This document shows, one piece after another, positions 42 to 48,900 of a DNA stretch of 64,000 nt. This DNA is from Acanthochromis polyacanthus (Eukaryota; Chordata; Actinopteri; Pomacentridae): the NCBI RefSeq assembly GCF_021347895.1, contig NC_067124.1:17412521-17476520 (forward strand). The letters are read 5' to 3'. Below the pieces are notes generated by a model. It saw only the letters and a list, made by a program, of their open reading frames with translations. It searched no databases and had not been told where the DNA came from. The stretch's first letter is position 1, and each line of letters starts with the position of its first letter. Made by a program: the position numbers and the translations under genes.

Positions 42-3000
42 CTTGGAACTGGATCAGCTCAACTGATGTCATTCTCTCCCCATTTCTGAAAGAAACTGGA
101 CCCTGAAAATACACAGAGATGTTGAAATCATACCTGTAAACACACCTACAGCTCACTAATAAATAGTAATTAATCACTTAATCAATTAATGACAAACTAA
201 CACATGACACAAAACTGTTCCAGTAGCTTTAAATTAAATCACAAACTCCTGTTGTCACATTTCTGCCTGTGTAATTAAACACGATGTGAGTCAGTGAGAC
301 TTACAGGTGTGCTGCTGAACTTCACCTGAGCAGCTAGCTGCTTCCCCATTAGCTTACCGTCTCTATGTTAAGCTAAGCTAACCACATTTTCTTCTCATCT
401 CAAAATCATCGCCTCATTTAACCCTCTGACCCTCAGGTGTATGCTTCAGGTGTGTTCTGGTGTGTTTCAGGTGTGTATTTCAGGTGCATTTCAGATGTAT
501 TTCAGGTGTGTTTCCAGTGTGTTCAGGTGTATTTCTGGTGTATATTTCAGTTGTCTTTCTGGTGTATGTATCAGGTGTGCTAAAGTGTATTTCTGGTGTA
601 TGTTTTAGGTGTGTTCAGTTCACCGTGACTCCTTGGAACTGGGAGCCCTTCAGGACCTCCAGCAGCATCCTCTCCGTCGCCTCCTCGCCGACCGTCACGT
701 TCCGGTTGTACTTTTGTTGGTGTTTTTGCGCTTCCATGACCTGAACCAGAGCTCGGGCTGCGACCCAAACAGCATCGTAGACGAAGGAGTGCAGCGGGCC
801 GAGCTCAGAGTTCTGGTCCAGATGTCGCAGATATGAGTCCTGGTAGTCCTGAGGAGTCTGCAGGACGACAGTCACAGTTTCATCTGGTTGGTTTAGTTCT
901 GTTCTGTGTGGGCCAGACTGAGTTCTGCTTTTCTGCTGTGGAGATTCGGGAAACTAAACTCTGTAACAACCTGCAGCTTAGAAATTGATTTCACATGGAA
1001 CATAGTCAGTTTAATGTATGAAGGAAACAGATTAGTCTCATTTATCAAACTGCATCAGGGACCTGCTTTCTGTCTGATCTGATCACCAACATATTGCTTG
1101 GCTGCCTTGCTTCTGAAACTCAGCAGCTTCAGTGTGACGGAGGGTCAGCTGGCTCTGCCCAAAATTTGTTCAAAATGAGTTCAAATTTAGCCAAAATTAA
1201 TTTAAATTTATACAGAATGACTTGAAACATCACATCAGTAGGAAGTGGAGTCCACAGACAAGGAGCTGAATCAACTTTATGTCACTTTGGACCATTTTAT
1301 GTGTGCTTCTATATAATCATATCATAATATATAATAATCTTACTTTTTCTATAAAGTTACCAAATCAAATATGTCATTTTGGAACATTTTTTTGTTCTTT
1401 TGATCAAATTAAGAATAATTTTGGACAATTTTTATTTGTTCTGAACACATTCTAATTAAATTCTTAATTTTTGAATCATGTGGAACAAGTTTCAAGTCAT
1501 TTATGGAAAGTAGAGTCAGCCAGCAACTCTTTGTCTGAGTTACTTTGGGCAAATTTAGATTTTTAGAACAACTTTTTTCACTTTGGAGAAGTGATGTAAT
1601 TTAGAAGAAACATTTTGTGGGTCATACTATCCATCCATTCATTCTCTATACACCGCTTTATCCTCACTAGGGTCACGGGGGTGCTGGAGCCTATCTCAGC
1701 TGACTCAGGCGAAGGCAGGGGACACCCTGGACAGGTCGCCAGTCTGTCGCAGTCATATTCATACCTACTGGCAATTTAGAGTTATCAGTTATCTTCAGCA
1801 TATTTTTGGACTGTGTGAGGAAGCCGGAGTACCCAGAGAAAATCCACGCATGCGCAGGGAGAACATGCAAACTCCATGCAGAAAGATCCCAGGCCCAAGC
1901 CAGGATTTGAACCGGGGATCTTCTTGCTGCAAGGCGAAAGTGCTAACCACTACGGCACTGTGCAGCCCCTGGGTCATACAAGACTATTTCAAAATATTTT
2001 GAAGAAGTTTTTTCTTAATTTTGGACTCATTTCATGTCAGACTGTAACAGAAGTTCTGACCCGTCCAGAGACTCCGACTGTGTTGGTTCTGCTCAGCAGT
2101 CTGATCTGCAGCCTGATGGATCCGTCTGCAGCCGTCAGTAGACTGTTGGCTGAGCAGCCGGAAGCCTTCCAGCCGAGCCTCCAGCCCGGTCCTGTTCCGG
2201 ACACGATCCACTGGTACCGAGGTCCGAACAGGTTCAGTCTGTATGCCTGGACGGAAACACTGACAGTCAGAACCTGCTCTGACTGAACTCTGGACTTTAA
2301 TCTTGACACACAAAGGACAGAAACATGAGGGAGTGTGGCCACTGTGTGTCTCTGTGGTTGTTTTGTGTTGTGTTTGTTCTATGTTGTGTTGTTTTGTGTT
2401 GTTCTGTATTATGTTGTTTTGTGTTGTGTTGTTCTGTGCTGTGTTGTGTAGTTTTGTGTTGTGTTGTGTTGTTCTGTGCTGTGTTGTGTTGTGTTGTTTT
2501 GTGTTGTTCTGTGTTGTTCTGTGCTGTGTTGTGTAGTTTTGTGTTGTGTTGTTCTGTGCTGTGTTGTGTTGGTTTGTGTTGTTCTGTGTTGTTTTGTGTT
2601 GTGTTGTTCTGTATTGTGTTGTTCTGTGCTGTATTGTGTTGTTTTGCGTTGTTCTGTGTTGTGTTGTTATGTGACCTACGCAGCAGAAAACCTCCGACGC
2701 TGAATCATCTTCAAAGTGTGCGATGATGATGCGAACGTCTCGATCCTGAAATATCAGAACAAATGATGTGGCTGTAAATGAGGAGCTCTGATGGACTGTA
2801 AACTCAGAGTGTTCAAACTTGTGGTTCCTCCAGAACCTTCAGCTTCTTCAGGCTGCTGCAGGCGTCTGCAGAGAAACTTTCTGAGGCCACAAGCTGCACG
2901 TCGGCCTTCAGCAGCTGTCGGAGCAGATCCTTCTTCATCTGTTCACAAACAGAACACCTGAAGTGAGACGAGGACTGAACACGTCCAGAGGTTTTATGAG

Positions 3001-5038: not shown

Positions 5039-5545
5039 GGACAAGGTACGTTTTATCCGTTTGATTCCCGGCTATAAAAGACACAAGCAGAAACAAAAAA
5101 TCAAGCCATTTTTTCGTTTTTTCGTTTTGAGCAAAAAACAAAAAAAACAGGAAACGGTTCGTTTTTTCGTTTTTTCGTTTTGAACAAGAAACAAAAAAAG
5201 AGGAAACGGTTCGTTTTTTCGTTTTTTCGTTTTCACCCCCAAAATGAAAATACGACTCAATATTCCGTTTCATTGGTGGGCGGGGCTTCGGAGCCTGCCA
5301 GTGCACAATAAAGCTCCTGCCCATCACAATAAAGCTCCTGCGCTGGCATTCATAGACAGACTGACTTTCATTGTATTGCCTGCCCCCACTGCACTTCCCC
5401 TAACTCTAAATCAAAGCAAGTCGTGTACACAGTAATGACAGTCATAACCAGTGGTGTAGTCTAGTTTTTTCTACTGGGTATACTCCAACCTCATAAACCA
5501 AAGCCAGGTCAGGTTCTCATATATGTGCGCGTGCACTCACATGTC

Positions 5546-5606: not shown

Positions 5607-6125
5607 CAGCAGCAGCTCCTTTATTTCAAACTACCAATTAGATACTTATAGACATTATAGCGTCAGCAGCTCCTCCTGCCATCAGGTAGAGCTGGTGTTT
5701 CCTCTTCATCAGGTAGAGCTGATGTTTCCTCTTCATCAGGCTCCCTTTCCTAAACTTTAACCTTAGCTCCAGCTGTAGTGTTCCCTAAAGCGGCAGTATT
5801 CACAGGACAAGCAACAGGCTTATTAAAACACTGAAATAGTTTCATTTTGCTTTGCTTTCTTTTTCTTATTTTTTCTCCACTGACTGATGTTGGATCATTA
5901 GAAGTTCTAGACTCATGTCCCTCTTCTTCTAAGCCAGGGGTATTCAGCTAAAATTCAGAAAGGTCCAGTCAGCAAAGGTCCAGAACATCATAATGTCTAA
6001 CTTGAGTTACTGTGATATATGCTGATGTAACCTGGTAGTTTTATTAGAGTCTGCCTGTAATCAAAAACTGACCGTCAAATAAATTCAGTACGGTTCAAAA
6101 ACATTTTGACATTTATTAATAAATA

Positions 6126-7040: not shown

Positions 7041-8240
7041 CTGTCCTCTCTGTCCCTCATCTCTCAGCTGCTTTTTGAAGGCAGAGCTGCGATGCGATTC
7101 AGCGACGTCATTGGCTGAGTAGCATCACGTGGGATGCCTGAACTCGTACATAATTGGTCTGTGCGTTTCTGAGCCGATAGACCAATGATAAACACTGGAA
7201 AGCTGTACCCTGCACCGGTAAAATAGAAGCGACCTGTCAAATTTACACCCGTATAGACGGCGTCTGGGTCCGGATCCGGACCGCGGTCGGCCTTTAGTGA
7301 ACCCTGTTCTCAGCCAGACACCTTCCCCCGTCCCATACAGCTTCACCGCTTCCTGACACAGAGAAAAGTGAACGTTATGTCAAAAAAACATACTAATACA
7401 TGTGTTTGCGCATTTTTAAGTGGTTATATGGAAATTCGGGACCTTTTCTAGTGGGTATAAGGCGTATACCTGCGTGTTTACACCCCTGGGTATACGTATC
7501 TTTGCGCATTTTTAAGTGGGTATACAGAAATTTGGAAAATTTTCTAGTGGTGGGGTGTATACCTGCGTATCACGTAGACTACATCACAGCTACATGTATG
7601 ACGTTTGTAGCAAAAACATAAAAATAAAAAAACGCGTGAAAATCATTTTAATTTTCAGAGTTAAGATGGATTAAATGCGCTGTCAAACAGCGCTGAGTGG
7701 AGCGGCTGACCGGACCAAGACGGCGGCCGTATTTCTCGCTGCACAATACCCCGAGCAACGTTGACCTGACCTGGCTTTGGTTTATGAGGTTGGAGTATAC
7801 CCAGTAGAAAAAACTAGACTACACCACTGGTTATGACTGTCATTACTGTGTACACGACTTGCTTTGATTTAGAGTTAGGGGAAGTGCAGTGGGGGCAGGC
7901 AATACAATGAAAGTCAGTCTGTCTATGAATGCCAGCGCAAGAGCTTTATTGTGATGGGCAGGAGCTTTATTGTGCACTGGCAGGCTCCGAAGCCCCGCCC
8001 ACCAATGAAACGGAATATTGAGTCGTATTTTCATTTTGGGGGTGAAAACGAAAAAACGAAAAAACGAACCGTTTCCTGTTGTTTTTGTTTTTTTGTTCAA
8101 AACGAAAAAACGAAAAAACGAACCGTTTCCTGTTTTTTTGTTTTTTGCTCAAAACGAAAAAACGAAAAAACGGCTTGTTTTTTTGTTTCTGCTTGTGTCT
8201 TTTATAGCCGGGAATCAAACGGATAAAACGTACCTTGTCC

Positions 8241-8338: not shown

Positions 8339-8837
8339 GGACAAGGTACGTTTTATCCGTTTGATTCCCGGCTATAAAAGACACAAGCAGAAACAAAAAA
8401 TCAAGCCGTTTTTTCATTTTTTCGTTTTGAGCAAAAAACAAAAAAAGCAGGAAACGGTTCGTTTTTTCGTTTTTTCGTTTTGAACAAAAAACAAAAAAAC
8501 AGGAAACGGTTCGTTTTTTCGTTTTCACCCCCAAAATGAAAATATGACTCCATATTTCGTTTCATTGGTGGGCGGGGCTTCGGAGCCTGCCACTGCACAA
8601 TAAAGCTCCTGCCCATCACAATAAAGCTCTTGCGCTGGCATTCATAGACAGACTGACTTTCATTGTATTGCCTGCCCCCACTGCACTTCCCCTAACTCTA
8701 AATCAAAGCAAGTCGTGTACACAGTAATGACAGTCATAACCAGTGGTGTAGTCTAGTTTTTTCTACTGGTTATACTCCAACCTCATAAACCAAAGCCAGG
8801 TCAGGTTCTCATATATGTGCGCGTGCACTCACATGTC

Positions 8838-8953
<116 letters not shown>

Positions 8954-9782
8954 GCAGCAGCTCCTTTATTTCAAACTACCAATTAGATACTTATAGACAT
9001 TATAGCGTCAGCAGCTCCTCCTCCTGCCATCAGGTAGACCTGATGTTTCCTCTTCATCAGGTAGACCTGATGTTTCCTCTTCATCAGGCTCCCTTTCCTA
9101 AATGTTAACCTTAGCTCCAGCTGTAGTGTTCCCTAAAGTGGCAGTATTCACAGGACAAGCAACAGGCTTATTAAAACACTGAAATAGTTTCATTTAGCTT
9201 TGCTTTCTTATTCTTATTTTTTCTCCACTGACTGATGTTGGGTCATTAGAAGTTCTAGACTCATGTCCCTCTTCTTCTAAGCCAGGGGTATTCAGCTAAA
9301 ATTCAGAGCGGTCCTGTCAGCAAAGGTCCAGAACATCATAATGTCTAACTTGAGTTACTGTGATATATGCTGATGTAACCTGGTAGTTTTATTAGAGTCT
9401 GCCTGTAGTCAAAAACTGACCATCAAATAAATTCAGTACGGTTCAAAAACATTTTGACATTTATTAATAAATAACTTTTATGTAACTGTATATCTTAGAA
9501 TAAAGTGCAGAACTTAAAAAAGCATGACCGAACAACCTGAATCAACTTCTATACATCTTTAACAATACATAAATCTCATAAATGTAAACATTTGAACACT
9601 TTTACATTTTTGTCTGTCTCATATCACTCCCCTAATATCTCTGCTGCTTAATGGGAGAACTGAGCTGCTGCTTGTTTGAGCCGTTCTCAAAACATATTTT
9701 GATTATGTTCATAGTTGAGAAAGCTGCCTTACAGCTGTTTGCTGAGCCAAACGTGGTCAGCATGTGACCACAGTCTGTCCTC

Positions 9783-10708: not shown

Positions 10709-11968
10709 CTGTCCTCTCTGTCCCTCATCTCTCAGCTGCTTTTTGAAGGCAGAGCTGCGATGCGATTCAGCGACGTCATTGGCTGAGTAGCGTCACGTGG
10801 GATGCCTGAACTCGTACATAATTGGTCTGTGCGTTTCTGAGCCGATAGACCAATGATAAACACTGGAAAGCTGCACCCTGCACCGGTAAAATAGAAGCGA
10901 CTTGTCAAATTTACACCCGTATAGACGGCGTCTGGGTCCGGATCCGGACCGCGGTCGGCCTTTAGTGAGCCCTGTTCTCAGCCAGACACCTTCCCCTGTC
11001 CCATACAGCTTCACCGCTTCCTGACACAGAGAAAAGTGAACGTTATGTCAAAAAAACATACTAATACATGTGTTTGCGCATTTTTAAGTGGTTATATGGA
11101 AATTCGGGACCTTTTCTAGTGGGTATAAGGCGTATACCTGCGTGTTTACACCCCTGGGTATACGTATCTTTGCGCATTTTTAAGTGGGTAAACAGAAATT
11201 TGGAAAATTTTCTAGTGGTGGGGTGTATACCTGCGTATCACGTAGACTACATCACTGATCATAGCTACATGTATGACGTTTGCAGCAAAAAATAAAAAAA
11301 AATAAAAAACGCGTGGAAATCATTTTAATTTTCAGAGTTAAGATGGATTAAATGCGCTGTCAAACAGCGCTGAGTGGAGCGGCTGACCGGACCAAGACGG
11401 CGGCCGTATTTCTCGCTGCACAGTACCCCGAGCAGCGTTGACCTGACCTGGCTTTGGTTTATGAGGTTGGAGTATACACACTAGAAAAAACTAGACTACA
11501 CCACTGGTTATGACTGCCATTACTGTGTACACGACTTGCTTTGATTTAGAGTTAGGGGAAGTGCAGTGGGGGCAGGCAATACAATGAAAGTCAGTCTGTC
11601 TATGAATGCCAGCGCAAGAGCTTTATTGTGATGGGCAGGAGCTTTATTGTGCACTGGCAGGCTCCGAAGCCCCGCCCACCAATGAAACGAAATATGGAGT
11701 CATATTTTTATTTTGGGGGTGAAAACGAAAAAACGAAAAAACGAACCGTTTCCTGTTTTTTTGTTTTTTGTTCAAAACGAAAAAACGAAAAAACGAACCG
11801 TTTCCTGTTTTTTTGTTTTTTGTTCAAAACGAAAAAACGAAAAAACGAACCGTTTCCTGCTTTTTTTGTTTTTTGCTCAAAACGAAAAAATGAAAAAACG
11901 GCTTGATTTTTTGTTTCTGCTTGTGTCTTTTATAGCCGGGAATCAAACGGATAAAACGTACCTTGTCC

Positions 11969-30900: not shown

Positions 30901-33900
30901 GATTATCTCAGCAAAGGAGAAGTGCTCACTATCACAGATTTAGACAGATTTGTGAACAATATTTGAGAGAAATGGTGATATTGTGTATGTGGAAAAAGTT
31001 TTAGATCTTTGAGTTCATCTCATAAAAAATGGGAGCAAAAACAAAAGTGTTGTGTTTATATTTTTGTTGAGTGTAATTGCTCATTGATCTTCCTGGATCC
31101 TTTTCCATCTTTTGTTTAGTTCTGACTCCGTTTTGAACCTATGGACTGTGTCTATTTGTGTCTGCATCATGGCTCCACATGGAAAAGTTGATAGTTCACA
31201 GAGCTTTGTTGTATATTTAATGTTAGAACAGTTAAAAGTTCAGTTATTGTTTAATATTTTCTGCATTAAACTAACCTGCAGTCAAACCTGGTTAAAGTGT
31301 TTTTCTCTGACCTTCAGTCCAGCGGGTTTCTGGGTAATCTGCAGGCCGAGCGATTTGATGGCCTCAGCTGCTCTCTGAGAGTGAGAGGCGGAGCTTCAGA
31401 TCTGCTGGTCATCAGGAAAAAAGGTACTGTTACCATGGCAACCAGCTGCATGATTTGTCTGTCTTCATATCTGTGTACCTGTGTGTTTTCCTGTGTGTGT
31501 ATACCTGTTCGTGTACCTGTGTGTTTCAGGGGCAGAGTTTTCCTCACGGCAGCAGCAGCAGACCTATGTGAGGATGAGGATGATGAAGGCACTCTCAGGT
31601 GTGTTCAGGACTCAGGTGTTCTCCTCCAGACGAACATCTCTCTCGGACGTTCACCGTTTCTGTCAGGATGGCTGCAGCCGCGACGCCTGTTGTGACGGGT
31701 TCATCCTCAACCAGAACGTCCTGGACGGAGGTATGTTACCATGGAGACTGCAGCATGTGACTCCAGTAAAAACAGCTCAGGGTTAATGGGATAACTGAGT
31801 GAACAAAAGAGTAAGTAATAACCGAATTAGATGAGCATTTTGAGGACTAATTAAATCAATGACTGAAATGAATGAAAATTTAATGCTGTAAATAAACAAA
31901 TGAATGAGTGGATGAATCAGTGAGCACATGAAAGAATGAATAATGAGTAATTTGCCTTAATTAGTGTATTACAAAGTGAATTGAACACTTTTGTAAATGA
32001 AGGAATAAATCAATGAAAGCGAGGGAATGAACTGGATGCCCCGCCCACCGCAGGTACTCTGCTCTGTGGTTGGCTGAGAGCTCCGTCAGTGCTGATGTGT
32101 GGGGAGCAGGACTGGGATGTGATTGGACAGGGAGCGGCCAATCGGATCTGTGGGGCAGGGCTCACCTACAACAAGGAGCAGCGCAGCTTCGTGTTCGACT
32201 TCGGAGGACAAAAGTTCACCATCAGTGAGAAAATAAAGTCACAGCTAAGACACCTGAACACAAACTGACCTTTTGTTTGTTTATTCTTCTGCACAGCTGA
32301 CTTGACTGTTTATTTGTTTGTTTGTTGTTCTGCTCAGCTGATTCGGCACTGCCAGCCGACAGTAAGAACAAGAAAGACTACCAGGCCTCTATCATCAGCT
32401 TCCAGTCCATCTACCTGAACTCTGGTACACCTGGACACATCTGGAGATATGAAGCTCTGTTTAATGAAGCTGTGATGGTTGTTTATCTTTGTTTTGTGGT
32501 TATTTGTAGATTCAGCTGTCAGCAGTCCTGGTTCTGGTTCCTCTTCCTGCCCTGCAGCAGAGCCCAGTCCTCCCCTGGATGGTTTGTGATTCTTAATGTG
32601 GAAACAGAAACAGATGAACACATGAATGAATGTGAATGAATGAGTGTTTGTGTTTCAGAATCGGTGCAGCAGAAATTTGAGTCTCTGTCTGCTGATGACG
32701 TCCTGGTGGATCCTCAGAGGAAGCTTCCTGTTCTGTCCTTCCTGCTCAACAAGAACAACTACAACTCCCAGCAGGCTTTGCTCTGGTGTCTCACACGTAG
32801 GTCACATTAACTCCTCTGCAATGTTCGTCTATTAGAGCTACATTTACTGTCAAACACACAATACAATAATAATCAATTTACACGTTTGCTAGAACAGTTG
32901 CTGATCCAGAGTTTGACTGTTGGTTTATTTCCAGAACAGATGTTCATTTTTATTGTTGTTGTGTTGTTATCAGATATACACCAAATAAAAATAATTTGGG
33001 TTCTAGTGAAGTTCTGTTTGTGCAGTGGATGTTTATCTCATATGTGTGATCTTTTTATGATCTGTTAGATGAGATAAAACCAGCATCTGTTCACTTGGCA
33101 GTCTTTCAGGTTGTGTAGTTTTCCCCTGCTTTCGTTTTTCATGGACAGTTTATCGACTCCGAGAATCTGGAGGCAGCAGAAGTAAATAAAATGCATCGTC
33201 TGTGTTTCAGGCTGTGATACAGAGCAGCAGTGTTCGATCGCTGACCTCAGAGACGCTGCAGGTTTCTTCAGCTGCTCATTGTTTCCTGACAGCAGCGTTT
33301 GCGGCGCCTACGACAAACCTCTGAGACGGCCGTGTCGCCCCGTGCTGGACCGGACGCCCAACAACACCTACAGCAAGAAGGGTGAGGAGAGGAACTGCTG
33401 TTCATTCACAGTGGAAACAGAAAACTGCTCTGAACATGCAGCCGCATGTTAACAGATATTAATCTGTTAACAGTTCATGAACTTCTGGGTCCCACACAAT
33501 CCACATTTACACTGATTTAAACCCAACAGATATAAATACTCCTGTTGTCCCCAGTGATGTGTTCAGAAGCATCAGCAAACATTCAATTCACTGAAAAACA
33601 TGAGCTATTTCAAGTGTGCAGGTAGTATTAAAGCAGCCCACCTCCACTAAATCCATCATCAGGTTTGACATTGTTTTTCTTTAAGCAGACAAAAAAAAAA
33701 TCTAAAATGGTCTAAATTCTGAACCTTCCCTTTTTTGAGTGAACTGTCTGAACTAAAGGCACCACACAGAGCAAGTGGATGTTTGTGGGTTGTAAAGGGA
33801 CATTCTGGTGTTCTTAAATCTCAATTTGTTTGTTCAGTGAACCTGTCTGGACCAGTGAAGAGTTTCTACGAGAGAGTTTCTTTCCAGAAGATGGTTTCTT

Positions 33901-36900: not shown

Positions 36901-39900
36901 TTAACTGACTGTGCCTGATAAAACTGTATTTGCAGCATGTTGTACAGTTTATATCAGAGTTAAAGCAGTGTGATGTCATCAGTGACTTCACCTCCCCTGT
37001 ATCTGTGTGTCTCAGAGGGGGCGTGTCCCAGTCCTGGTTTTCTTCTTCAACCCTTCAGCCAATCAAAACCCAGGACTGATGGATGGCTCTGCCCTCGCAG
37101 CTGTGGGTAACATCATCGTGGTAACAGCCAATTATCGGACAGCAGCAGTGGGATTCCTGAGCACAGGTAACCACACGCTAACACAGGTAGGCACACTCTA
37201 ACTCAGGTAAGCACATGCTAACTCAAGTAAATACATGCTAACTCAGATAAGGACATGCTAACTCAGATAAGGACATGCTAACTCAAGTAAATACATGCTA
37301 TCACAGGTAAACACATGCTAACACAGGTAAACACACGCTAACTCAGGTAAACACACGCTAACTCAGGTAAACACACACTAACTCAGGTAAGCACACGCTA
37401 ACGCAGGTAAAAACACGCTAGCAGGTAAACACACGCTAACTCAGGTAAGCACACGCTAACACAGGTAAACACACGCTAACGCAGGTAAGCACACGCTAAC
37501 TCAGGTAAGCACACGCTAATGCAGGTAAGCACAAGCTAACTCGGGTAGGCACACTCTAACTCAGGTAGGCACACACTAACGCAGGTAGGCACACGCTAAC
37601 GCAGGTAAACACACGCTAACTCAGGTAAGCACACGCTAACTCAGGTAAGCACACGCTAACGCAGGTAAACATGCTAACGCAGGTAAGCACACGCTAACTC
37701 GGGTAAGCACAAGCTAACTCGGGTAAGCACACACTAACTCAGGTAGGCACACTCTAACTCAGGTAGGCACACGCTAACACAGGTAAACACACGCTAACGC
37801 AGGTACACACACGCTAACTCGGGTAAACACGGTAATGCAGGTAAGCACACACTAACGCAGATAAGCACACGCTAACGCAGGTAAGCACACGCTAACTGAG
37901 GTAAGCACAAGCTAACGCAGGTAAACACACGCTAACTCAGGTAAGCACACGCTAACTCAGGTAAGCACACGCTAACGCAGGTAAACACATGCTAACGCAG
38001 GTAAACACACGCTAACTCAGGTAAGCACACGCTAACGCAGGTAAACACACCCTAACGCAGGTAAGCACACGCTAACGCAGGTAAAAACACGCTAACTCAG
38101 GTAAGCACACACACAGGTTTGATCACCTGGCTCCACTTTTCCTCCGTCTCCAGGTGCAACTGGTCTCCGCGGTAACTATGGCCTGTCGGACCAGGAGGCG
38201 GTGCTTCGTTGGGTCCATGCCCACATCTCCCTGGTGGGCGGAGACAACACCAGGGTGACCGTGGGGGCGGAGCGTGGTGGCGCTGACATCACCAGCCTCC
38301 ACCTGCTGTCGTCTTCACCTCCTCTGTTCCAGCGGATGATGCTGATGGTGAGAATCTCCCTCTTCGTGAACTTCTGGGTCCTACACAGACAACAAATCAA
38401 GATTCAGCACCACACTGGACCTGAAGGACTGAACAGTAGTAGTAGTTTAATTTACCACAAGGATGGCGGAACCTGAACACACCATGATAAGTTTAACTTG
38501 TTACAGAACAGACTTCACTGTTTGTACAGCCTCAAACAAGAATAATAATTTGTGTTCAGATTGTCAGATAGCAGCAGTGGATGACTTCAACTATCTGAAC
38601 CCCAAAACCTGATGACAGGTTTAAAAAGCATGTTATCTTTAAGAAAATCTCCAAATGTAACTATTTATCAGCCATACACTGTAAAAACTGAAAGAATAAT
38701 CAAAATGTTCAACTTTCCAATAGTCCAAGAAACAAGCCGGTGAATTTTGATTTCAAATCTAAAAATCTAGATGTTTAATCAAAATCACTTATTGTACCTC
38801 TGTATCTCTTATTTTCTAAATTTGCCAAGAATAAACTGGAAGAAAGCAAAATTTCTTCATTCTTATGTGCAACCAAGAGGCCGTCACTGACTCAGCCATG
38901 AAAAACAGTCATGAGAAGAAAGTTGAGGGACTATTTGGCTGAACTGCAAGCAGTGTTTCCACTGAGCAGAGAGGAAATGAGGATGGAAACTAATTAAAGC
39001 TGCAAATAGTTAAATATCTGCAGTATGCGGAGCCTCCATTTGTTCCAGTGTTTTAGCCTATGTGGGACACTGAAAAACTGGAATCAAAAAGTCCAGTGTT
39101 ATTCAGTTTTTGTAGAATAAGTAATTAAAACTTTTTCTCTGGTTTCCACCATTCTAACTGAATCCTACTGACAAAAGACATTTCTGAGTTCTCTCTCCTT
39201 CATGTTGTTCTGTGTCCGTGGAGTTGCAGGACTTTAGATTACAGTGGAAAATGAACACAGTGACGAAAAAAGAGACAAGCGCAGAAAACACCCAGAAAGA
39301 TTCAGACGGTTGATGAACTTTGTATTCTCAGAGTTTATGGTCTTGTGTCTCTCACCTGCTGGATCTTCTTCTCTTCCTACAGGGCGGTTCTGTGTTTTCT
39401 CCGGCACTGGTCCAGACTCCCTCCACCTCCAGACGTCAGGCCATCGATCTGGCCACAGAACTCGGCTGTCCAACCTCCGAGGACGACAAGATGGCCTCCT
39501 GCCTCAGAGCGGTTCCGATGCAGCAGCTGAACACCGCCCAGACGAAGGTAGAACCTGAACTTTGAGGTTTGTGGTTCTGTAGTCGTGGTTTTGTTTCATG
39601 TCTCGGCTATGTTCTGTCCTGCAGCTGCTCGCCGTCAGAGGCCCGTTTCAGTCCTGGTCTCCGGTCCGTCAGTCCGTCTCCCAGCCGGCGTCCTTCCACA
39701 GAGTCGACCTTCTGCTGGGAACCTCTGAGCACGACGGTCTAATCAGCCGGGCTCGCAGGATAAAGGTCAGAGGTCCACTGAGGTTCATCCTGAACCGTTT
39801 GTTCTGTTGCTGATCATCATGTTCTCTCTGTCCAGGACTTCGAGGTTCTGCAGGGTCGAGCCGACAGGAAGACGGCGTTCTACGAGGCTCTGAGCCGCTC

Positions 39901-41919
39901 ACTGGGTGGAGCCTCTGGAAACCCGCTGCTGAAGGAGGCAGCGACCTGGTTCTACTCTCTGGATCACAGTCCTTCAGCTGCTGGATACAACCTGTTCTCC
40001 AGAGCACTCAACAACGCCACCAGGTGGGAAACACGGAGAACACGGCTGAAGAACTGGAGTCCAGGAAGATCTGTTACTGTTCAGCGGTTAATGCAAACAT
40101 GACTGGTTTGGAACACAGTCGATATTCATTTAATGTTTATTAATCATCTCTGCGCTGAAATTAGAAGATGATCAATCCATTCATCCGAAAAATGCATCAA
40201 AATTAATGGATTAAAGTCAAATTTATTAGCTTCAAAATACGAACCAACAGGTAAAACTCTCAAGAAAAATAAACCGAAAATTAGGGGAAGAAAAACAGAA
40301 TTATACAAAACCAAAAAGTTCAGAAGAAAGTCCGGTAAATATAGATCAACAAAAGCCAAAAGATTCTGTGTTATGAAGTTAAAATTTTGAGGAAAGAGTA
40401 TAAATATTGCAGGAAAACATCCAATAAAACTACATTTTAAATTTTAAGTAATTTAGAATTCTAATATTTGTTAAGAAAAAGTCTAAATTTTAGGGTAAAA
40501 AAAAATATATATTTTCTTTCTATATTTTTAAACTATATAGAAAAAAGTCAAAGTTCAGTTTAAAATATTAAAAATCAAAAACCTTCAGTTTCAAATCTTT
40601 TCTCTACTCTTCAGCCTATGAAGATAAACATTAATGCACAGTTATTAAAGTAATTATGTCAACGGCTGATGACAGAATTATTATTATTATTATTAAGAAC
40701 TAACAATAAAAAATAGTTTGTTTATCCAGTTCTATCAGTTGGGGTTTCATTTACTTGCTCATGGTGGAAATAAATATCAGAGGAGTTTGAAGTTCAAAGA
40801 CACGAGTTCTGATCCTGTTTTGACATGTTCCTCTTCTTCAGTGGAGCAGGTAAATACAACACCTGCACAGGTGTGTGTCAGCTGTTTGTGTGTTTTATGT
40901 TGCAGAGATCTGTTCATCATCTGTCCAACACTGCAGATGGCCAGTCACTGGGCGAAGAGCAACGCCAACGTCTTCCTGTTCCACCAACCAGACACTAGCG
41001 CTCACAGCAGGTGATCAGGAACAAAATTAGTCACAGTTTAATAAAAAATCAGTCACAGTTTAATAAAAATCAGACATTTCAGCTTCCACTCATAAAAAAC
41101 AGTCCAGGTAGATAAACTCACCTGGTTTCAGGTAAATGTGCCATCAGAACTCTGTTCAAACTAATGTTTGGTCTTTGAGCTGCTGCAGTAACCAATGGAG
41201 AGTGTTTAGGGAACATCTGTAAACTGCAGTTTCTGGTTCTTCTGTGGTTCTGATCCACCATGTCTATGTCTGCAGGACTGATGTGTCGGTTCCTCTGGAC
41301 GTCCAGTTTGTTTTTGGGGCTCCTCATCATCCAGTCAGCTCTCAGCGTTTCAGCTCCTCTGATCGCCGCCTCTCATTGGCCATGATGAGTTACACCTCCA
41401 GCTTCATACGGACCGGGTCAGACAGTAAACCTGGATCAAGTTCTGCACTGGGAGGGTTTCACACAGTGCAGCTGATTTTTTCCTGTTTTCTCTTCAGGAA
41501 CCCGAACCCATCACGTGTGTGGGTGGAATCAGCGCTGCCCCGCTGGCAGCCCGTCCTGTCCTCTGAGGCCCCACCCACCTACCTGGAGCTAAGCCCCGCC
41601 CTCCGGCACCAGGAGGGTCTGAGTCAGAACGCCTGCTCCTTCTGGAGACAGCTGGGAACCAGACTGACCAGTTCAACAGGTGAACGAGTTCTACTGGACC
41701 AGAACATGTCAGCCTTCAGATATCCAGTTTAACACCAGAGTTTCACTGTTTCATTTGGAGCTGATCAATCAGTTCTGCTGATTGATTGATGGATTGATTG
41801 ACTAACAAACTTCTTCTATGACTACAGGAGAGTTGGGGGCAGAGTCTGTCCAGCCTGCTGAGCTCCCATTGGCTGCTCCATCCAGCCAATCACAGACCGA
41901 GAAAGATGCCTACAGTTGA
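14035..41919 (+). CDS. tg: Thyroglobulin, complete gene (48 coding exons, about 2392 aa)
   Basis: Thyroglobulin is the secreted follicular scaffold whose tyrosines are iodinated and coupled to T4/T3. The 48 exons (listed in the block entries) all have AG/GT borders and compatible phases, and total 7179 nt including the stop. Order: signal peptide [16 protein letters not shown]-terminal hormonogenic EYQLD, type-1 repeats, hinge, GCC2-like type-2 repeats, one more type-1 repeat, type-3 repeats, cholinesterase-like domain, C-terminal KDAYS and stop at 41917–41919. Human thyroglobulin is about 2768 residues. The shortfall is mainly one missing type-1 module and a short exon 9. Tyrosines at the N-terminal acceptor, the ELYGTRQ donor region and the C-terminal site are all present. 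No frameshift or internal stop was seen. Introns carry several transposons, and I saw no gene nested in them. Confidence 0.97.
16589..16974. mobile_element. Short element with 14-bp inverted termini in tg intron 3
   Basis: ACCTCCGCCAAGGA at 16589–16602 is repeated exactly inverted at 16961–16974. Between them, on the minus strand, lies a tRNA-like module: the complement of 16693–16709 reads TAGCTCAACTGGTTAGG (A box) and the complement of 16646–16656 reads GGTTCGATTCC (B box). This suggests a tRNA-derived SINE or MITE-like composite. No coding. Confidence 0.65.
18064..18112. repeat. (CTGT)n microsatellite in tg intron 5
   Basis: About ten CTGT units begin just after the exon 5 donor. Another (CTGT)n run lies just before exon 34. 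Confidence 0.9.
18338..18385. repeat. (CA)n microsatellite in tg intron 6
   Basis: About 22 CA dinucleotides start within 10 bp of the exon 6 splice donor. Confidence 0.95.
19731..20233 (+). CDS. tg: tg exon 9: linker between type-1 repeats 4 and 5
   Basis: A 503-nt exon with acceptor CCAG and donor CAG|GTCCGA. It encodes a leucine- and serine-rich linker with the family landmark [12 protein letters not shown] followed by FNFSGSVG. The equivalent mammalian exon is, as I recall, about 1.1 kb, so this linker is roughly half as long. The reading frame continues in phase 0 into exon 10. Confidence 0.93.
20787..21168 (+). CDS. tg: tg exon 10: type-1 repeats 5 and 6
   Basis: A 382-nt exon encodes two complete type-1 modules. 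The first has [17 protein letters not shown] and [15 protein letters not shown]; the second has [17 protein letters not shown] and CFCVDAEGK. It ends in phase 1 on a split cysteine codon at GTCACAT|GTAAGG. Mammalian proteins continue here into a large seventh module; in this gene the next exon is already module 8. Confidence 0.93.
21965..25420 (+). CDS. tg: tg exons 11–16: type-1 repeats 8, 9 and 10
   Basis: Exons: 21965–22195, 23209–23313, 23718–23795, 24684–24787, 25026–25137, 25259–25420. Exon 11 holds [19 protein letters not shown], which aligns with the module 8 insertion of mammals. Exons 12–13 supply the [12 protein letters not shown] and [12 protein letters not shown] halves. Exons 14–15 make the ninth module, with GWCVNPQTG lacking the first cysteine of the usual CWCV, as in mammals. 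Exon 16 is a whole tenth module with [15 protein letters not shown]. Module numbers follow the human scheme. Confidence 0.93.
22574..23105. mobile_element. MITE-like element in tg intron 11
   Basis: A 16-bp terminal inverted repeat CCCTTTAAGCTTCAGT (22574–22589) is matched exactly by its complement at 23090–23105. TTAA precedes the left end, as in piggyBac insertion, but the right flank AACA does not match, so the superfamily is uncertain. The interior has no long open frame. An 18-bp perfect palindrome lies against the right terminus. Confidence 0.7.
25752..28896 (+). CDS. tg: tg exons 17–21: hinge region and type-2 repeats
   Basis: Exons: 25752–25937, 26359–26486, 26604–26754, 27993–28151, 28753–28896. 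Exons 17–20 form the hinge, with [16 protein letters not shown] and the conserved LPDLHDV. The position matching the human internal hormonogenic tyrosine (CSADYADLLQ) reads CSQISSLQ here, so that tyrosine is absent. Exon 21 encodes cysteine-rich type-2 (GCC2/GCC3-like) repeats: [31 protein letters not shown]. Confidence 0.92.
29372..29536 (+). CDS. tg: tg exon 22: type-1 repeat 11
   Basis: A 165-nt exon encodes the isolated type-1 module downstream of the type-2 repeats: [19 protein letters not shown], then [18 protein letters not shown] is degenerate (WRCF), as it is in the mammalian module at this place. Phase 1 at both ends. Confidence 0.9.
29613..35663 (+). CDS. tg: tg exons 23–37: type-3 repeats
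   Basis: Exons: 29613–29717, 29960–30069, 31318–31423, 31530–31730, 32054–32224, 32338–32424, 32510–32581, 32659–32796, 33211–33381, 33838–33952, 34095–34174, 34845–34991, 35071–35136, 35265–35399, 35481–35663. Landmarks in order: [113 protein letters not shown]. Each aligns with the mammalian type-3a/3b series. Exon 23 uses the TTTAG|TTCTCAGG acceptor and exon 37 the GCTTCAG|CCTGTC acceptor; nearby alternatives break the frame. Confidence 0.92.
30242..31073 (+). mobile_element. Non-autonomous Tc1-like transposon in tg intron 24
   Basis: An 832-bp element with terminal inverted repeats of about 240 bp (30242–30484 and 30835–31073) and TA at both flanks (30240–30241, 31074–31075), the Tc1/mariner target. 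The middle encodes about 80 residues of a transposase N-terminal helix-turn-helix, including [20 protein letters not shown] and the AT-hook-like SHRPHVTTP. The catalytic DDE part is gone, so it can move only with outside help. Confidence 0.9.
34205..34403 (-). mobile_element. SINE-like retroposon in tg intron 33
   Basis: Flanked by an exact 15-bp direct repeat AACATCCAGCTTTCT at 34190–34204 and 34404–34418. The minus strand begins with a tRNA-like GGTAGCTCAACAGCTTGAGC and ends in an A-rich tail (the T run after 34204). It begins 30 bp after the exon 33 donor. Confidence 0.75.
34576..34600. repeat. Poly-A run in tg intron 33
   Basis: About 23 A residues in a row, perhaps the tail of an old retroposon. 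Confidence 0.85.
34798..34827. repeat. (CTGT)n microsatellite before tg exon 34
   Basis: Seven CTGT units end about 18 bp before the exon 34 acceptor, within the pyrimidine-rich region. Confidence 0.9.
35740..41919 (+). CDS. tg: tg exons 38–48: cholinesterase-like (ChEL) domain and C-terminal hormonogenic site
   Basis: Exons: 35740–35944, 36185–36272, 37016–37166, 38154–38347, 39383–39547, 39625–39765, 39836–40023, 40906–41010, 41276–41416, 41498–41679, 41828–41919. The alpha/beta-hydrolase fold shows [16 protein letters not shown] and the type-B esterase signature [10 protein letters not shown]. The nucleophile elbow reads GAERGGADI, with Arg where active enzymes have Ser (GESAG), so it is non-catalytic like mammalian ChEL. 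In the family this domain acts as folding chaperone and dimerisation and export signal. [14 protein letters not shown] keeps a tyrosine near a known hormonogenic position, and the end KDAYS resembles the mammalian C-terminal T3 site. Confidence 0.95.
37162..38118 (+). repeat. 20-bp minisatellite of splice-donor-like units in tg intron 40
   Basis: About 47 tandem units of consensus ACACGCTAACTCAGGTAAGC. The array begins at the true exon 40 donor (GCACAG|GTAACC) and runs for about 950 bp. Most units contain a near-consensus 5' splice site (CAG|GTAAGC or CAG|GTAAAC) and CTAAC, which resembles a branch-point sequence. All units are in the transcribed orientation. Confidence 0.95.
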
Positions 41920-42978: not shown

Positions 42979-45900
42979 ATGGAGAAGCTCCTGGTTCTGT
43001 GTGTGGCTCTGAGCGTCGCCTCAGGTAACAACCAGCTTCACCTGCTCACTTTCTTTAGGTTTGTTCCACTGCAGCAGAAAGATGAACGCCTGAGACACTG
43101 ACAGAATCATCCTTCAGTTTACACATGACTGGAGAGAATGCTGATTGTTTTCATTATTACCTCAACAAACAGAAAAGAGTGAAAGTGAGTCTTTAGGTCT
43201 CATTTAGTCACAGAGATTCTTTTTCCTGTGAATCTTGTTTCAGAAACTCGTTGACTTTATCTGATCACCTGCAGCAGAACAAGATCAGATTCTAACAAAC
43301 TAAAATCTGAAGCTTTGAGCTGCTCGAATGTTCCGTCTTTTCTTTGAGCTTTCAACAAAGGAAACTGAAGATGTCTCAGGGTGGAACACTCTAAGGACGT
43401 TTTATTGACTCAGTTTTCTGTGTTGACCTCACAGACTCAGAGATTAGATCCTGAATGTAAGTCAGATAATTCTGCTTTCAGGTCCATTTGGTTCAGGATT
43501 AATCTGCTGCTTCAGCTGGATCAGACACTTTAATATATTTCAGCACTGAAAGGTTAATGAAGGTTTATTTTCAGTTTTTTGCTGTAAATATAAATGTGCT
43601 TTTTCCTTGACACCCTGAAACAAACATTAGATGTTTATCCACTAACAGAGAACCTGAGCTCTGGTCAACAGGTGAGTTTTGTTCAGCAGGATCACAGTCC
43701 AACACCTACAGCCTCAGATCATGTTTGTGGACAAACTGCTGCTGAGTCAACCACATTTATCTGATTTATTTGCTTTGTAATTGTTTTTCTATTGATATTG
43801 TTCTTGGTCATTTTTCCTTTTTTTGTCATTTTGAAGACATTTAATTTTTTAAGATATTTTTTGGATTATCCTGGATTTTTTTTCAAAAATCTTTTTGATA
43901 CATCTTCATCAGAATGAAGATAGCACATTAAACATATAAAACAGTCTATTTTCTATTATTGTAGTTATTTTCTTCCATTTACTGTTTCTATGTCAGTTAA
44001 AGTTTGAGTCATTTTTAAATGTGTCCATTTTTGGACCCATTTTCAGTGATTTTTGGACACGTAAAGTTATTGTGGATATTGTTTTTGGTCACTTTGGACT
44101 TATTAGAGGAAATAGTTTTTGTCAAATGTGAAGACTTTATAGTTGGTGCGATCTATAGACATACAATTAACACAATAAATAGTCCTTTTCTGTTGTTGTG
44201 TTGTATAAATGCTTTGTGTATGTAAAAGGTCTGCAAACTGGAGTTCCATCCGTCATTCTGGATGGGTTTGGAGCTGCTTTATACAGCTCTAGGTCATTTT
44301 GTACAATCTTTGAGTCCTTATGGAAATACAAGCAACAGAAAAAGTTATTTACAAAAAAGTTAAGCTATTTAATCAACAATTCATAGCTTTATATTTCTAA
44401 ATATTTATCTAATTTAGTAAAAAGCAAAGTTTCTCAAAGTTTTCTTTGAGAGAAAAAGATTTTTTTTTTGAGGAAAATATTTTTTTCTTCTTCTTCCATT
44501 AGTTTCCTCACAAACGACTGTTGTTTCCATAACTACCTCACCTACGACGACCAGTAGGCCTGATGTTTCAGCACAACCTGTATCCATGACGACCATCACA
44601 ACCACCAGGAGTGAAACCAGCAGCTCCACCTCAGACCAGTCAGCTTCCTCTCAACCTCCCAGTAACACCAGTAGCACTACAGCCGCTCCCAGTAACACCA
44701 GTACCCCTTCAGCTACTTCCAGTACCATCACAGTTGCGACCAGTAACACCAGTACTATCACAACTACTCCCAGTAACGCCAGTACCATCGAAGCTACTCC
44801 CAGTAACGCCAGTACCATCGGAGCTACTCCCAGTAACGCCAGTGCCATCACAGCTACTCCCAGTAACGCCAGTGCCATCGGAGCTACTCCCAGTAACGCC
44901 AGTGCCATCACAGCTACTCCCAGTAACGCCAGTACCATCGGAGCTACTCCCAGTAACGCCAATACCATCGGAGCTACTCCCAGTAACGCCAGTACCATCG
45001 GAGCTACTCCCAGTAACGCCAATACCATCGGAGCTACTCCCAGTAACGCCAGTACCATCGGAGCTACTCCCAGTAACGCCAGTGCCATCACAGCTACTCC
45101 CAGTAACGCCAGTACCATCGGAGCTACTCCCAGTAACGCCAATACCATCGGAGCTACTCCCAGTAACGCCAGTGCCATCACAGCTACTCCCAGTAACGCC
45201 AGTGCCATCACAGCTACTCCCAGTAACGCCAGTTCCATTGGAGCTACTCCCAGTAGCGCCAGTATCATCACAGGCACTCCCAGCAACACTGGTAACCCTT
45301 CAGCTTCTTCCAGTAACATCACAGTTGCTACCAGTAACACCAGTACCATCAAAGCTACTCCCAGTAACGCCAGTACCATTACAGCTACTCCCAGTAACAC
45401 CAGTACCATTGCAGCTACTCCCAGTAAGGCCAGTACCCATTCAGTTGCTTCCAGTACCATCACAGTTACTCTCAGTAACACCAGTACCTCTTCAGCTGCT
45501 ACCAGTAACACCAGTATCACCGGAGCAACAACACCGTCTCCAACACACTCTGGGATCCCCGGCAACAACACCACCATCAACACCAGCATGACAAAATCGT
45601 CCTCTGCCACGGCAACAAGCAGTGCTGCTGCTGTGTTGCCCAGCAACCGTGGGGGTGTTCCTGGGTGGGGCATCGCTCTGCTGGTTCTGGCTGCTGTGGT
45701 GGTGCTGCTGGTCCTGCTGATCCTCATCGGTCTGGTGAGTCTCACAAATTCATGTTGTGATTCCTATTTTACTGTTGAAATTGCTGAAGTCGATGCAGCG
45801 TTGACTTTAGCCAACCGCTTAAAACAACTCAAAGAACAAGAAATGAAAAAGTTCTCAGGAATTGTTTTTAATCTGGAAAGTTGTAGTGATTTCCTTCATG

Positions 45901-48900
45901 TCAGCTGATGTCGGCCATGTTTGATGCTAACAGAAACACCTTATCAGTCATGTGACTCAAATGTTGGCTAGGTTAGAACTTTACATAAGCTATTATAATG
46001 TTAGCTATACATCACCTAATGTAGCATTAGCCTCATATCAGCAAATGTAAAGTTAGCATTACATCAATTAATATAATGTTAGCTTAACATAATCTAATGT
46101 ATAGCTTACTTCAGCTTGTAAAATGTTAGCACCAATTCCGCTAGTATAATGCTAGCCCTACATCAGTTAATGTAATGTTAGCTTTCTTCAGCTCGTATAA
46201 TGTTAGCCCCACATCAGCTAATGTAATGTTAGCTTTACATAGGAAAATAGAGCATTTTTCTTACATCATCTAATATAACGTTAATTTCACAGCAGCTAAT
46301 ATATTGTTAGTCTTACATCAGCTAATGTAGCATTTGTTTTACATCATCTAATGTAACATTAGCTTACTTCAGCAAGTATAATGTTAGCCCCACATCAGCT
46401 AATACAATGTTAGCTTTACATCATCTAATGTAACGTTAATTTACTTCAGCTAATATAATGCTAGCCCCACATCAGCTAGTATAATGTCAGCTTTAGATCA
46501 GAAAATATAATGTTTGAGGTCAGCTGATGTGGGCCATATTTGATGCTGTCAGAAACTGCTGATCAGTCATGTGACTTAAATACAACTCAGCCATTAACAG
46601 AAGTTCTTTCCATTACCAGTGAAACTCATTAAGTCTTTACGGGAAGTAAAAAAACACGTATAGGGCTAAAAATAAATAAATAAATAAATAATGATCCCTT
46701 TATTTGTTTTATACAATGATTTAAAATGAGCACAAGAATTCGTTATCAGATCATTGCGTATTGGTTTTTATCTGCTGTGACACTAACAGCCATCAAGTGA
46801 TCAAAATCAGGAAGTGGTTCAAAGACTTTACATCCAAAAACTGTCTTTTTTTTAATTTTTTTTTTTTTTTTACAGTGTACAGTTTATAATTAATCAAAGT
46901 TGAGCAAGAACTGCTGGTAAAATCCAGACTGAACTGTGAGCCTGCTTCCATGTTTTATCTCACACTTCTTTTCCATTCATTAAGTTTCTTTTAATATCTT
47001 CCTCAACAGTTAAACTCCAGATGTTAGATTTATGTTCAGTCACGGAGGAAGAAGCAGCAGAAAGATAAAAAGGAAGCCAGCAGCCCAGAGAGGAACTAAC
47101 ATGAAGAAACACTGAAGCCATTTTGTTCTGCAGTTTATGAGGGACAATCATTTGTAAAACAGGAAACTGAACAGAGCTGCAGCAAATTCAACAGTTTGTT
47201 GCCAAAACAGGACACAAATCAGTGATGCAATTTATGAAGTTCATCTGAAACTGTTATTGAAAAACCTTCAGCAGGAAACCAAAGCAGTCTTTTAATAATT
47301 ATCTGTGTATCACTGAAAACATGCTGGAGGACCCTGTTTAACAGTGACTGTGTGTGTGCAGTTGATCTGGTACTGCTGTAGGGGGCGCTACAACGGCTTC
47401 AGCACCTACGACCACAATACCCACAGAGACGACCTCCCTCTCTACACCACCCACAGCCGCTTTGAGGCCAACGGCAGGCCATACGTAAGTCCAGCATCAC
47501 ACTAATGTTAACATGGGTTTTGTTTTTCACGGCAGAAACCAATTATTGTTGATCAATTAAAGTCTATTACCAATATTAAGAACCAATATTCATTAAAAAT
47601 TGCGTACTAACACCTTGTGACAGCAAGAACCAGTCATTCATAAGTAGACTTCTTCATTCGTGAGGATTAGTGTGATTGATTATGTGCAACAGAAATGAGA
47701 GTGATGACATCAGAGTGTCACATGATGTCAGAACGTTCTCTGTTTACTGACTGATCCATCGATTGAGATCAATATCAGTTCTGTCTGGTGTTATTCTGTT
47801 TTTATTTCTCACTAAGGTTTGGATCTTACAGCTTTATTAGCTATCGCTTTCCAAATTCAGTTTCAGTTTTTCTATGGCTGCCTGCTAACTGAGCTGCTAG
47901 CCGTTAGCATAGCCTTAGCCACTGTGGCAACTGCTAATGTGTTTATTAGTGGCAATGTTTGTGCTTCTAGTTCAATTTCTGCACGGTGTTTTTCTGTCAG
48001 TCAAAGTTAATCTGACTTTAGAAACATATTACGGTGCTCCAGATAGCTTTAGCACCAGGCTAAGCGGCACAGCTAACTCCTCACTGTTAGCATTAGCCTA
48101 GCACCATCAGAAGAATCAGTTCCTGACACCAACAGGTGAATTATTCAGGTGTTTATTAGAACTTCTGATAATGTGCTCATCTGTCTTTCCGTGTAAACAA
48201 CAGCTTTCAGTAATTGGCTGTTACTGTGACATGTCACCAGTCAGATCGTTCTGTGGGCGGGGCTTTGCTGAGAGCACAGAGTGACATCAGACAGACAGCA
48301 GCTGCAGCAGAGCCAAAGAGAACATTTAATATCCATCATTGATACACCACCTAATCCTCATTAGGGTCGCTGGAGCCTATCCCAGCTGACTTAGAGGCGA
48401 AGGCAGGGGACACCCTGGACAGGTCGCCAGTCTGTCGCAGGGCTACATACACAGACAAACAATCACACTCACATTCACACCTATGGGCAATTTTAGAGTT
48501 ATCCATTAACCTCAGCATATTTTTTTGGACTGTGGGAGGAAGCCGGATTACCCGGAGAAAACCCACGCATGCACAGGGAGAACATGTGAACTCCATGCAG
48601 AAAGATCCCAGGCCCAGACCGGGATTTGAACCGGGGATCTTGTTGTCTGTGTAGGTTCTCATTTATCCAGGTCATGGTTATCCAAAGTTGTTTAAATCAA
48701 TCCACTGGACTTTAAGAAAGTTCCTTGAAGACGTTTCACCTCTCATCCCAGAGGCTTCTTCAGTTCTGGTGGTGGTTGGTGTTACCTCAGCTTTTAAACA
48801 GGGATCTTCTTGCTGCAAGGTGAAAGTGCTAACCACTACGACACTGTGCAGCCCAACATTTAATATATTTTATTGAAAATTGCTATTTGAAACAAGAAAA

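Follow-up and report, generated by a model that had tools for sequence, protein, structure and literature searches.

The intron that follows a coding exon of the thyroglobulin gene (tg) in Acanthochromis polyacanthus opens with a 20-bp minisatellite whose units repeat the splice donor, and in the present study we concluded that this array is probably a donor-seeded minisatellite, with extra copies that are tolerated decoys, and one of a kind that recurs at exon edges. The window, meaning the whole stretch of 64,000 nucleotides analysed, holds the tg locus, which lies at 17.4 Mb of its 41.6-Mb contig. A sequence-only reading of the window had described about 47 copies of 20 bp beginning at the real 5' splice site, and this observation is confirmed. 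TRF placed the array at 37164-38110 (period 20, 47.7 copies, 86% matches, score 1243), and its consensus CAGGTAAGCACACGCTAACT holds both a splice donor and a CTAAC word. The upstream exon, putatively exon 40 according to that reading, and the next one (37016-37166 and 38154-38347) were joined and matched three solved thyroglobulin sequences of the PDB (E 8.9e-29, 8.9e-29 and 7.5e-27). The junction 37166|38154 was free of indels in both alignments shown (7n4y and 7qtq), so that the simplest assignment of the true donor is the first one, CAG|GTAACC. More tg exons flank the array-bearing intron on both sides. An assembly artefact, that is, a collapsed or expanded repeat, is very improbable: the copy number rests on one assembly and near-identical inverted pairs exist for several similar arrays, but the tg units are diverged, as the proportion of matches indicates, and the array is flanked by correct exons. 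In the intron segment that follows the array, TTGAT near 38120, read by eye, is a possible branch site. Folding of the intron RNA gave a single value of -207.7 kcal/mol over 1041 nt, from which we draw no conclusion. The features of the window and the similar arrays found elsewhere in the genome are collected in the table.

Table. Features of the tg region and of the window (positions in the window), and similar arrays of the genome by locus
Feature	Position or locus	Strand	Basis or remark
Thyroglobulin ChEL-domain coding exon upstream of array	37016..37166	+	PDB thyroglobulin alignments; acceptor tctcag|agg; 151 nt
True 5' splice site CAG|GTAACC, junction after 37166	37164..37172	+	protein alignment, matrix 7.01, U1 duplex -8.5
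20-bp minisatellite, 47.7 copies, consensus unit CAG|GTAAGCACACGCTAACT	37164..38110	+	TRF; unit columns
Array-bearing tg intron, 987 nt, nearly all array	37167..38153	+	sequence; TRF
Intron 3' end without repeat, pyrimidine-rich acceptor ...CTCCAG	38118..38153	+	sequence
Next thyroglobulin coding exon	38154..38347	+	protein alignment
Short repeat of TGTTTACCTGTG type just ahead of a further thyroglobulin acceptor; reverse-complement type at 3' splice site	31472..31526	+	TRF; sequence
CA-rich array from intron +7, GABA-B-receptor-2-like gene (exon ends 2680)	2357..2673	-	TRF; sequence
Array from about intron +9, ANF-receptor-like exon (ends near 624, by eye)	433..615	-	TRF; sequence
Donor-edge, sense, homology-backed: tg	L001		PDB thyroglobulin
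Donor-edge, sense, homology-backed: ELF-type exon	L046		Pfam Elf-1_N
Donor-edge, sense, homology-backed: LDL-receptor class A exon	L043		Pfam
Donor-edge, sense, homology-backed: formin FH2 exon	L084		score below curated cut-off
Donor-edge, sense, homology-backed: threonyl-tRNA synthetase (TARS) exon, start at intron +7	L042		PDB search
Donor-edge, sense (12)	L040/L041, L044, L045, L055, L066, L081, L086, L087, L095, L096, L104, L108		open frame/splice sites only
Acceptor-edge, antisense, homology-backed, within ~4-12 nt: C1 domain	L047		E 0.008, below cut-off
Acceptor-edge, antisense, homology-backed, within ~4-12 nt: kinesin	L079/L080		below cut-off
Acceptor-edge, antisense, homology-backed, within ~4-12 nt: ankyrin	L083		Pfam
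Acceptor-edge, antisense (2)	L002; L003/L005		open frame; exon neighbouring L003/L005 matches FH2, below cut-off
No edge or not judged	L004/L006-L008		~100 nt inside putative intron
No edge or not judged	L009, L012/L038, L039, L082, L085, L089, L090, L091, L092, L093, L094, L105, L106, L107, L109		
No edge or not judged	L048		hardly an array, 1.9 copies
No edge or not judged	L088		after stop codon

Within the array the donor is repeated in the sense direction, as had been claimed. All 47 GT sites, the true donor included, had a positive matrix score, and only one of the 153 GTs of the antisense strand scored above 5. The commonest nonamers were CAG|GTAAGC (16), CAG|GTAAAC (13) and CAG|GTAGGC (5), and CTAAC occurs 43 times. 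In the 3957-base tg locus, the pattern CAGGTRAR was found 31 times on the + strand and once on the other strand outside the array, against 0.59 expected, and a count of 32 was reached in none of 200 shuffles. Scored with a human donor matrix, the true donor has 7.01, and 39 of the other 46 GTs score higher (best 11.08). Duplex energies with the U1 5' end were -8.5 kcal/mol for the true donor, with 29 of the other 46 stronger, 9 equal and 8 weaker. The earlier claim that many units match U1 better than the true donor is supported. Since most copies match or exceed it, strength could not select the true donor, and its position or exon definition would have to do so.

The use of a downstream donor had been said usually to bring in a stop codon, and our computation went further: each of the 46 alternative donors leads to a premature stop, the same stop in the second unit for 45 of them and one by frameshift for the remaining donor. 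Together with the higher scores of most copies, these stops favour a functional ladder, in which U1 is bound at the array donors, or these are spliced at a constant rate, and nonsense-mediated decay (NMD) of the stop-bearing products tunes tg output. We consider such control quite unlikely. Computed from the 44 units of 20 bases, with the five that deviate in length set aside, mean entropy was about 0.41 bits over the nine donor columns vs about 0.33 over the other eleven, so the donor columns are no more conserved than the rest. The donor +5 position was the second most variable column (G 27, A 16), and fixed columns occur in the donor part of the unit (T, A) as well as in the remainder (ACA, CTA). 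This pattern is what homogenising turnover gives, with no sign of selection on the donors, and the suggestion that the ladder sequesters U1 is unsupported. Moreover, unrelated genes carry similar arrays, which argues for a general process rather than control of tg.

The closest system among those compared is the human IFI6 gene (G1P3, 6-16), where, according to Turri, Cuin and Porter (1995), a minisatellite reportedly provides multiple splice donors. In both genes a minisatellite sits at the exon end and its units supply donors in the sense direction; in tg the 20-bp, 47.7-copy array overlaps the exon end and the real donor. The tg unit differs in its length of 20 bp against 12 bp in IFI6, and the in-frame unit of IFI6 giving protein isoforms, perhaps not a defining trait, is absent in tg, with stops from all 46 donors. 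Two downstream repeat units of IFI6 are reported as used donors, which yield three mRNAs (PMC4526556), and this speaks for the functional ladder; tg can be likened to the IFI6 kind at most. On the array near the LDL-receptor class A exon (L043; reverse complement, 1197-1720), the 21-bp unit corresponds to seven codons and its consensus, read by eye, is free of stops in the frame of the exon. If downstream donors of L043 were used, repeats of seven residues might be added to the protein, much as in IFI6. In the introns of both the ELF-type exon (L046) and L043, the donor copies are equal to the first donor.

Recursive splicing, in which each unit (CTAAC...CAG|GTAAG) would act as a ratchet point and the intron would be removed stepwise, had also been proposed. 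Recursive splice sites are ratchet points with juxtaposed AG|GT, and most tg units do hold a branch-like word, an AG and a GT, the latter two side by side. Unlike such sites, the array has dozens of copies 20 nt apart in an intron of 987 nt, a length that gives no general reason for subdivision. Only about 5 nt separate the CTAAC of each unit from the AG that follows. The 48 YAG sites of the array are preceded by a mean of 6.2 and at most 8 pyrimidines in 12, vs 11 at the real acceptor; this argument is weak, because four other tg acceptors have 6, 8, 8 and 11. The proposal is unsupported, and we regard it as extremely improbable.

To place the tg array among others, the window's own genome (956.8 Mb, 81 contigs) was searched with the tg array, the array of a second gene and two donor patterns, the listed matches of which were mostly on contig C1. 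Among the matches listed, 40 distinct arrays were obtained, 17 with the tg array, 13 further ones with the second-gene array and another 4 and 6 with the donor patterns. Each near-identical inverted pair entered the count as one array, and of the pairs on C4 and the C1 37.0/69.2 Mb pair only the first member was read. Array starts were read by eye with open frames listed, most loci being covered at the start in donor orientation only. Read in this way, 22 of the 40 arrays start at an exon edge, 17 in sense at donors and 5 antisense at acceptors; 8 of these calls are backed by homology and 14 by open frames and splice sites judged by eye, and the least certain donor calls are L044 and L086. The remaining 18 had no edge or could not be judged. 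For one of the two donor patterns (ACAGGTAAAC), a query that is not a whole array, an edge was found in 5 of the 9 distinct arrays listed (L002, L066, L096, L104 and L108). Pfam gave no match for several edge exons, including the TARS exon, which a PDB search then named, and only a weak, unrelated-looking match for the exon of L095; the exons of L044, L086, L087, L104 and L108 were left out of the family searches. The interpretation given in the sequence-only reading is partly supported; its functional part is less likely than a tolerated donor-seeded expansion. The neutral local expansion set against it fits best in being neutral; "local" does not hold, as similar exon-edge arrays lie in other genes. 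This recurrence is, in our view, a more interesting result than the tg ladder itself.

How far chance could give such an edge count was estimated roughly. By an uncomputed estimate, exon edges with 10 nt on either side make up about one per cent of such a genome, while for arrays bearing CAGGTAA perhaps a fifth would be expected at donors, a rough and equally uncomputed figure, raised because such words are to a good extent real donors. The queries were CA-rich and donor-bearing, and CAGGTAA arrays are likelier to be donor-seeded, so the 17 of 40 at donors are not all a surprise. The TARS and GABA-B-receptor-like units contain no donor, and neither these nor the five acceptor-edge arrays are explained by a donor-word bias. 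Tandem triples of ACAGGTAAAC numbered 706 vs 0 for the reversed pattern and those of CAGGTAAG 605 vs 55, counts of overlapping triples that long arrays inflate. As a control, the window minisatellite 45979-46514 matched only itself in the genome and gave no control sample. For a second control, a CATCAACATGCTAACTGATA-type array on C4 served as query, and similar arrays turned up at six more places, their starts being read by eye; none of the four readable starts lay within 15 nt of a recognisable exon edge, in what is a small control. In it, the array start lay outside the stretch at L100 and L103, about 20-30 nt from a putative acceptor at L101 and well inside an intron at L102. A codon-based exon test trained on 698 tg codons, whose weak discrimination allows rough support only, ranked array starts against 400 window positions: of 28 starts, 10 reached the 90th percentile or better and 18 the 80th, and these 18 include L088 and L092, neither of which we call an edge. 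The test fails the edge calls of L083, L086, L087 and L095, and gives the wrong edge type for L081 and L096.

The window itself offers a sample free of motif choice. Six TRF arrays exceed 150 bp and comprise three copies or more (433-615, 2357-2673, 11722-11900, 37164-38110, 44719-45516 and 45979-46514), and three of them, that of tg, 2357-2673 and 433-615, start within about 10 nt of a donor; 44719-45516 is in a long open frame, and 11722-11900 and 45979-46514 lie elsewhere. For 2357-2673, a PDB alignment with GABA-B receptor subunit 2 crosses the exon junction of the array without an indel (E 7.9e-11). The ANF-receptor-like exon next to 433-615 matched Pfam PF01094 with E 0.006, below the curated cut-off, and this array probably belongs to the same GABA-B-receptor-2-like gene. 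The open frame 44472-45908 (+) has in 44719-45516 a 30-bp (10-residue) repeat rich in Ser, Thr and Pro, followed by a hydrophobic stretch, and by eye appears mucin-like. A 52-bp-type repeat was seen in four copies and two orientations (5109-5233, 8045-8172, 8407-8525 and 11722-11900) and a 27-bp repeat in two (5680-5740 and 9028-9088), which suggests a mobile element, or segments that were duplicated or inverted locally.

Of the 40 arrays, 26 are no more than 5 Mb from a contig end, including two on C24, where nearness means little because that contig has only 6.6 Mb. The other 14 include 10 from the middle of C1 (35-39 Mb), which is favoured among the matches listed. Many arrays of a type that elsewhere sits near contig ends form this cluster in the 69.3-Mb C1, and C1 may look like a fusion of two chromosomes, or the cluster may be an effect of which matches were listed. 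Near-identical inverted pairs on one contig were seen on C4 (3.78/2.32 and 3.82/2.29 Mb), C22 (1.19/29.12 and 5.46/7.67 Mb), C19 (31.97/33.05 Mb) and C1 (37.04/69.24 Mb), representing either large inverted duplications or an assembly effect.

The anatomy of these arrays bears on how they arose. In 8 of the 14 donor-edge loci compared, the exon shares its last 9 or more bases exactly with the consensus of the unit: L043 has 13 such bases, with 10 in L055 and L096, 9 in L066, L081, L087 and L095, and 18 in L086, whose exon is doubtful. By eye, the unit of L108 also appears to carry its exon tail. Exon tails inside units indicate that the duplication spanned the exon-intron boundary in those genes. 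The match is 3-6 bases in the other 6 of the 14; tg is among them, with 3 exact bases, or 5 with one mismatch, so that for tg itself this point is weak. An ordinary minisatellite born inside the intron, which grew up to the exon and matches the donor only secondarily, would agree with the 3-5 tg exon bases that fit the unit and with edge arrays that start at +7 to +9 without a donor (TARS, GABA-B-receptor-like). Growth from inside the intron would not copy exon bases, and the 9-13 exon bases held by the units of L043, L055, L066, L096 and others count against this origin, which we consider unlikely. In the donor-seeded origin that we prefer, a short CA-rich stretch across the exon-intron boundary, to judge from the anatomy, would have been duplicated in tandem. 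Growth by slippage or unequal exchange would then have put a donor copy in nearly every unit, and since selection would bar growth into the exon, the array would begin on the boundary and extend into the intron. The first tg donor would still be used, as the conserved protein suggests, and presumably be defined by the exon and its upstream acceptor; the other donors would be tolerated decoys, leakage to which would lead to the computed premature stops. Because a duplicated tail plus donor would leave the mRNA unchanged while the first donor is used, such duplications could survive. A 22-bp repeat of 2.4 copies at 41023-41073 (+) begins about 13 nt past another tg donor, and possibly it represents an early stage of the same process.

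Fish introns bounded by (AC)m/(GT)n have reportedly been described by Lin et al. (2016) together with a bridging model. The present genome is similar in that intron 5' ends bear CA-rich arrays and 3' ends bear TG-rich reverse complements, but the repeats here are minisatellites, often with a donor inside. Among the other tg introns, some boundaries of which were set by eye, CA steps were 10.0 vs 9.3 TG steps per 60 nt at the 5' ends (10 introns), and TG steps were 15.6 vs 6.3 CA steps per 60 nt at the 3' ends (7 introns). A GT-rich partner near the acceptor of the array-bearing tg intron is absent, its 3' end being gtttgatcacctggctccacttttcctccgtctccag, and therefore the bridging model does not apply to this intron. 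The growth hormone (GH) introns of Sparus aurata likewise carry minisatellites in a fish gene, which are polymorphic between individuals, and the passages on these introns state no link to splice donors (PMC3045353). The literature was searched for tandem repeats, minisatellites included, that sit at splice donors or within fish introns, and among the matches listed, which covered few subscription papers, IFI6 was the only case found. None of these matches described donor-edge minisatellites as a genome-wide class, which is no proof of absence.

The choice of one 5' splice site among near-identical neighbours is a classic question, usually approached with two or three sites in constructs. In tg and other genes of one vertebrate, dozens of tandem donor copies would form a natural series for such splice-site choice, in which the spliceosome would have to choose the first of dozens of look-alike tg sites, although this first site is weaker than most of its copies. 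Array copy number can be expected to vary between individuals. Furthermore, exon-edge arrays bear on the origin of minisatellites and invite wrong exon ends in gene prediction. We tentatively suggest, with somewhat less than even confidence, that exon edges, above all donors, are preferred birth sites of minisatellites in Acanthochromis polyacanthus, tolerated through the use of the first donor. If this is true, a whole class of introns in this fish would carry, in tandem, tens of donors that match or surpass the first, and the reverse-complement type would sit at acceptors.
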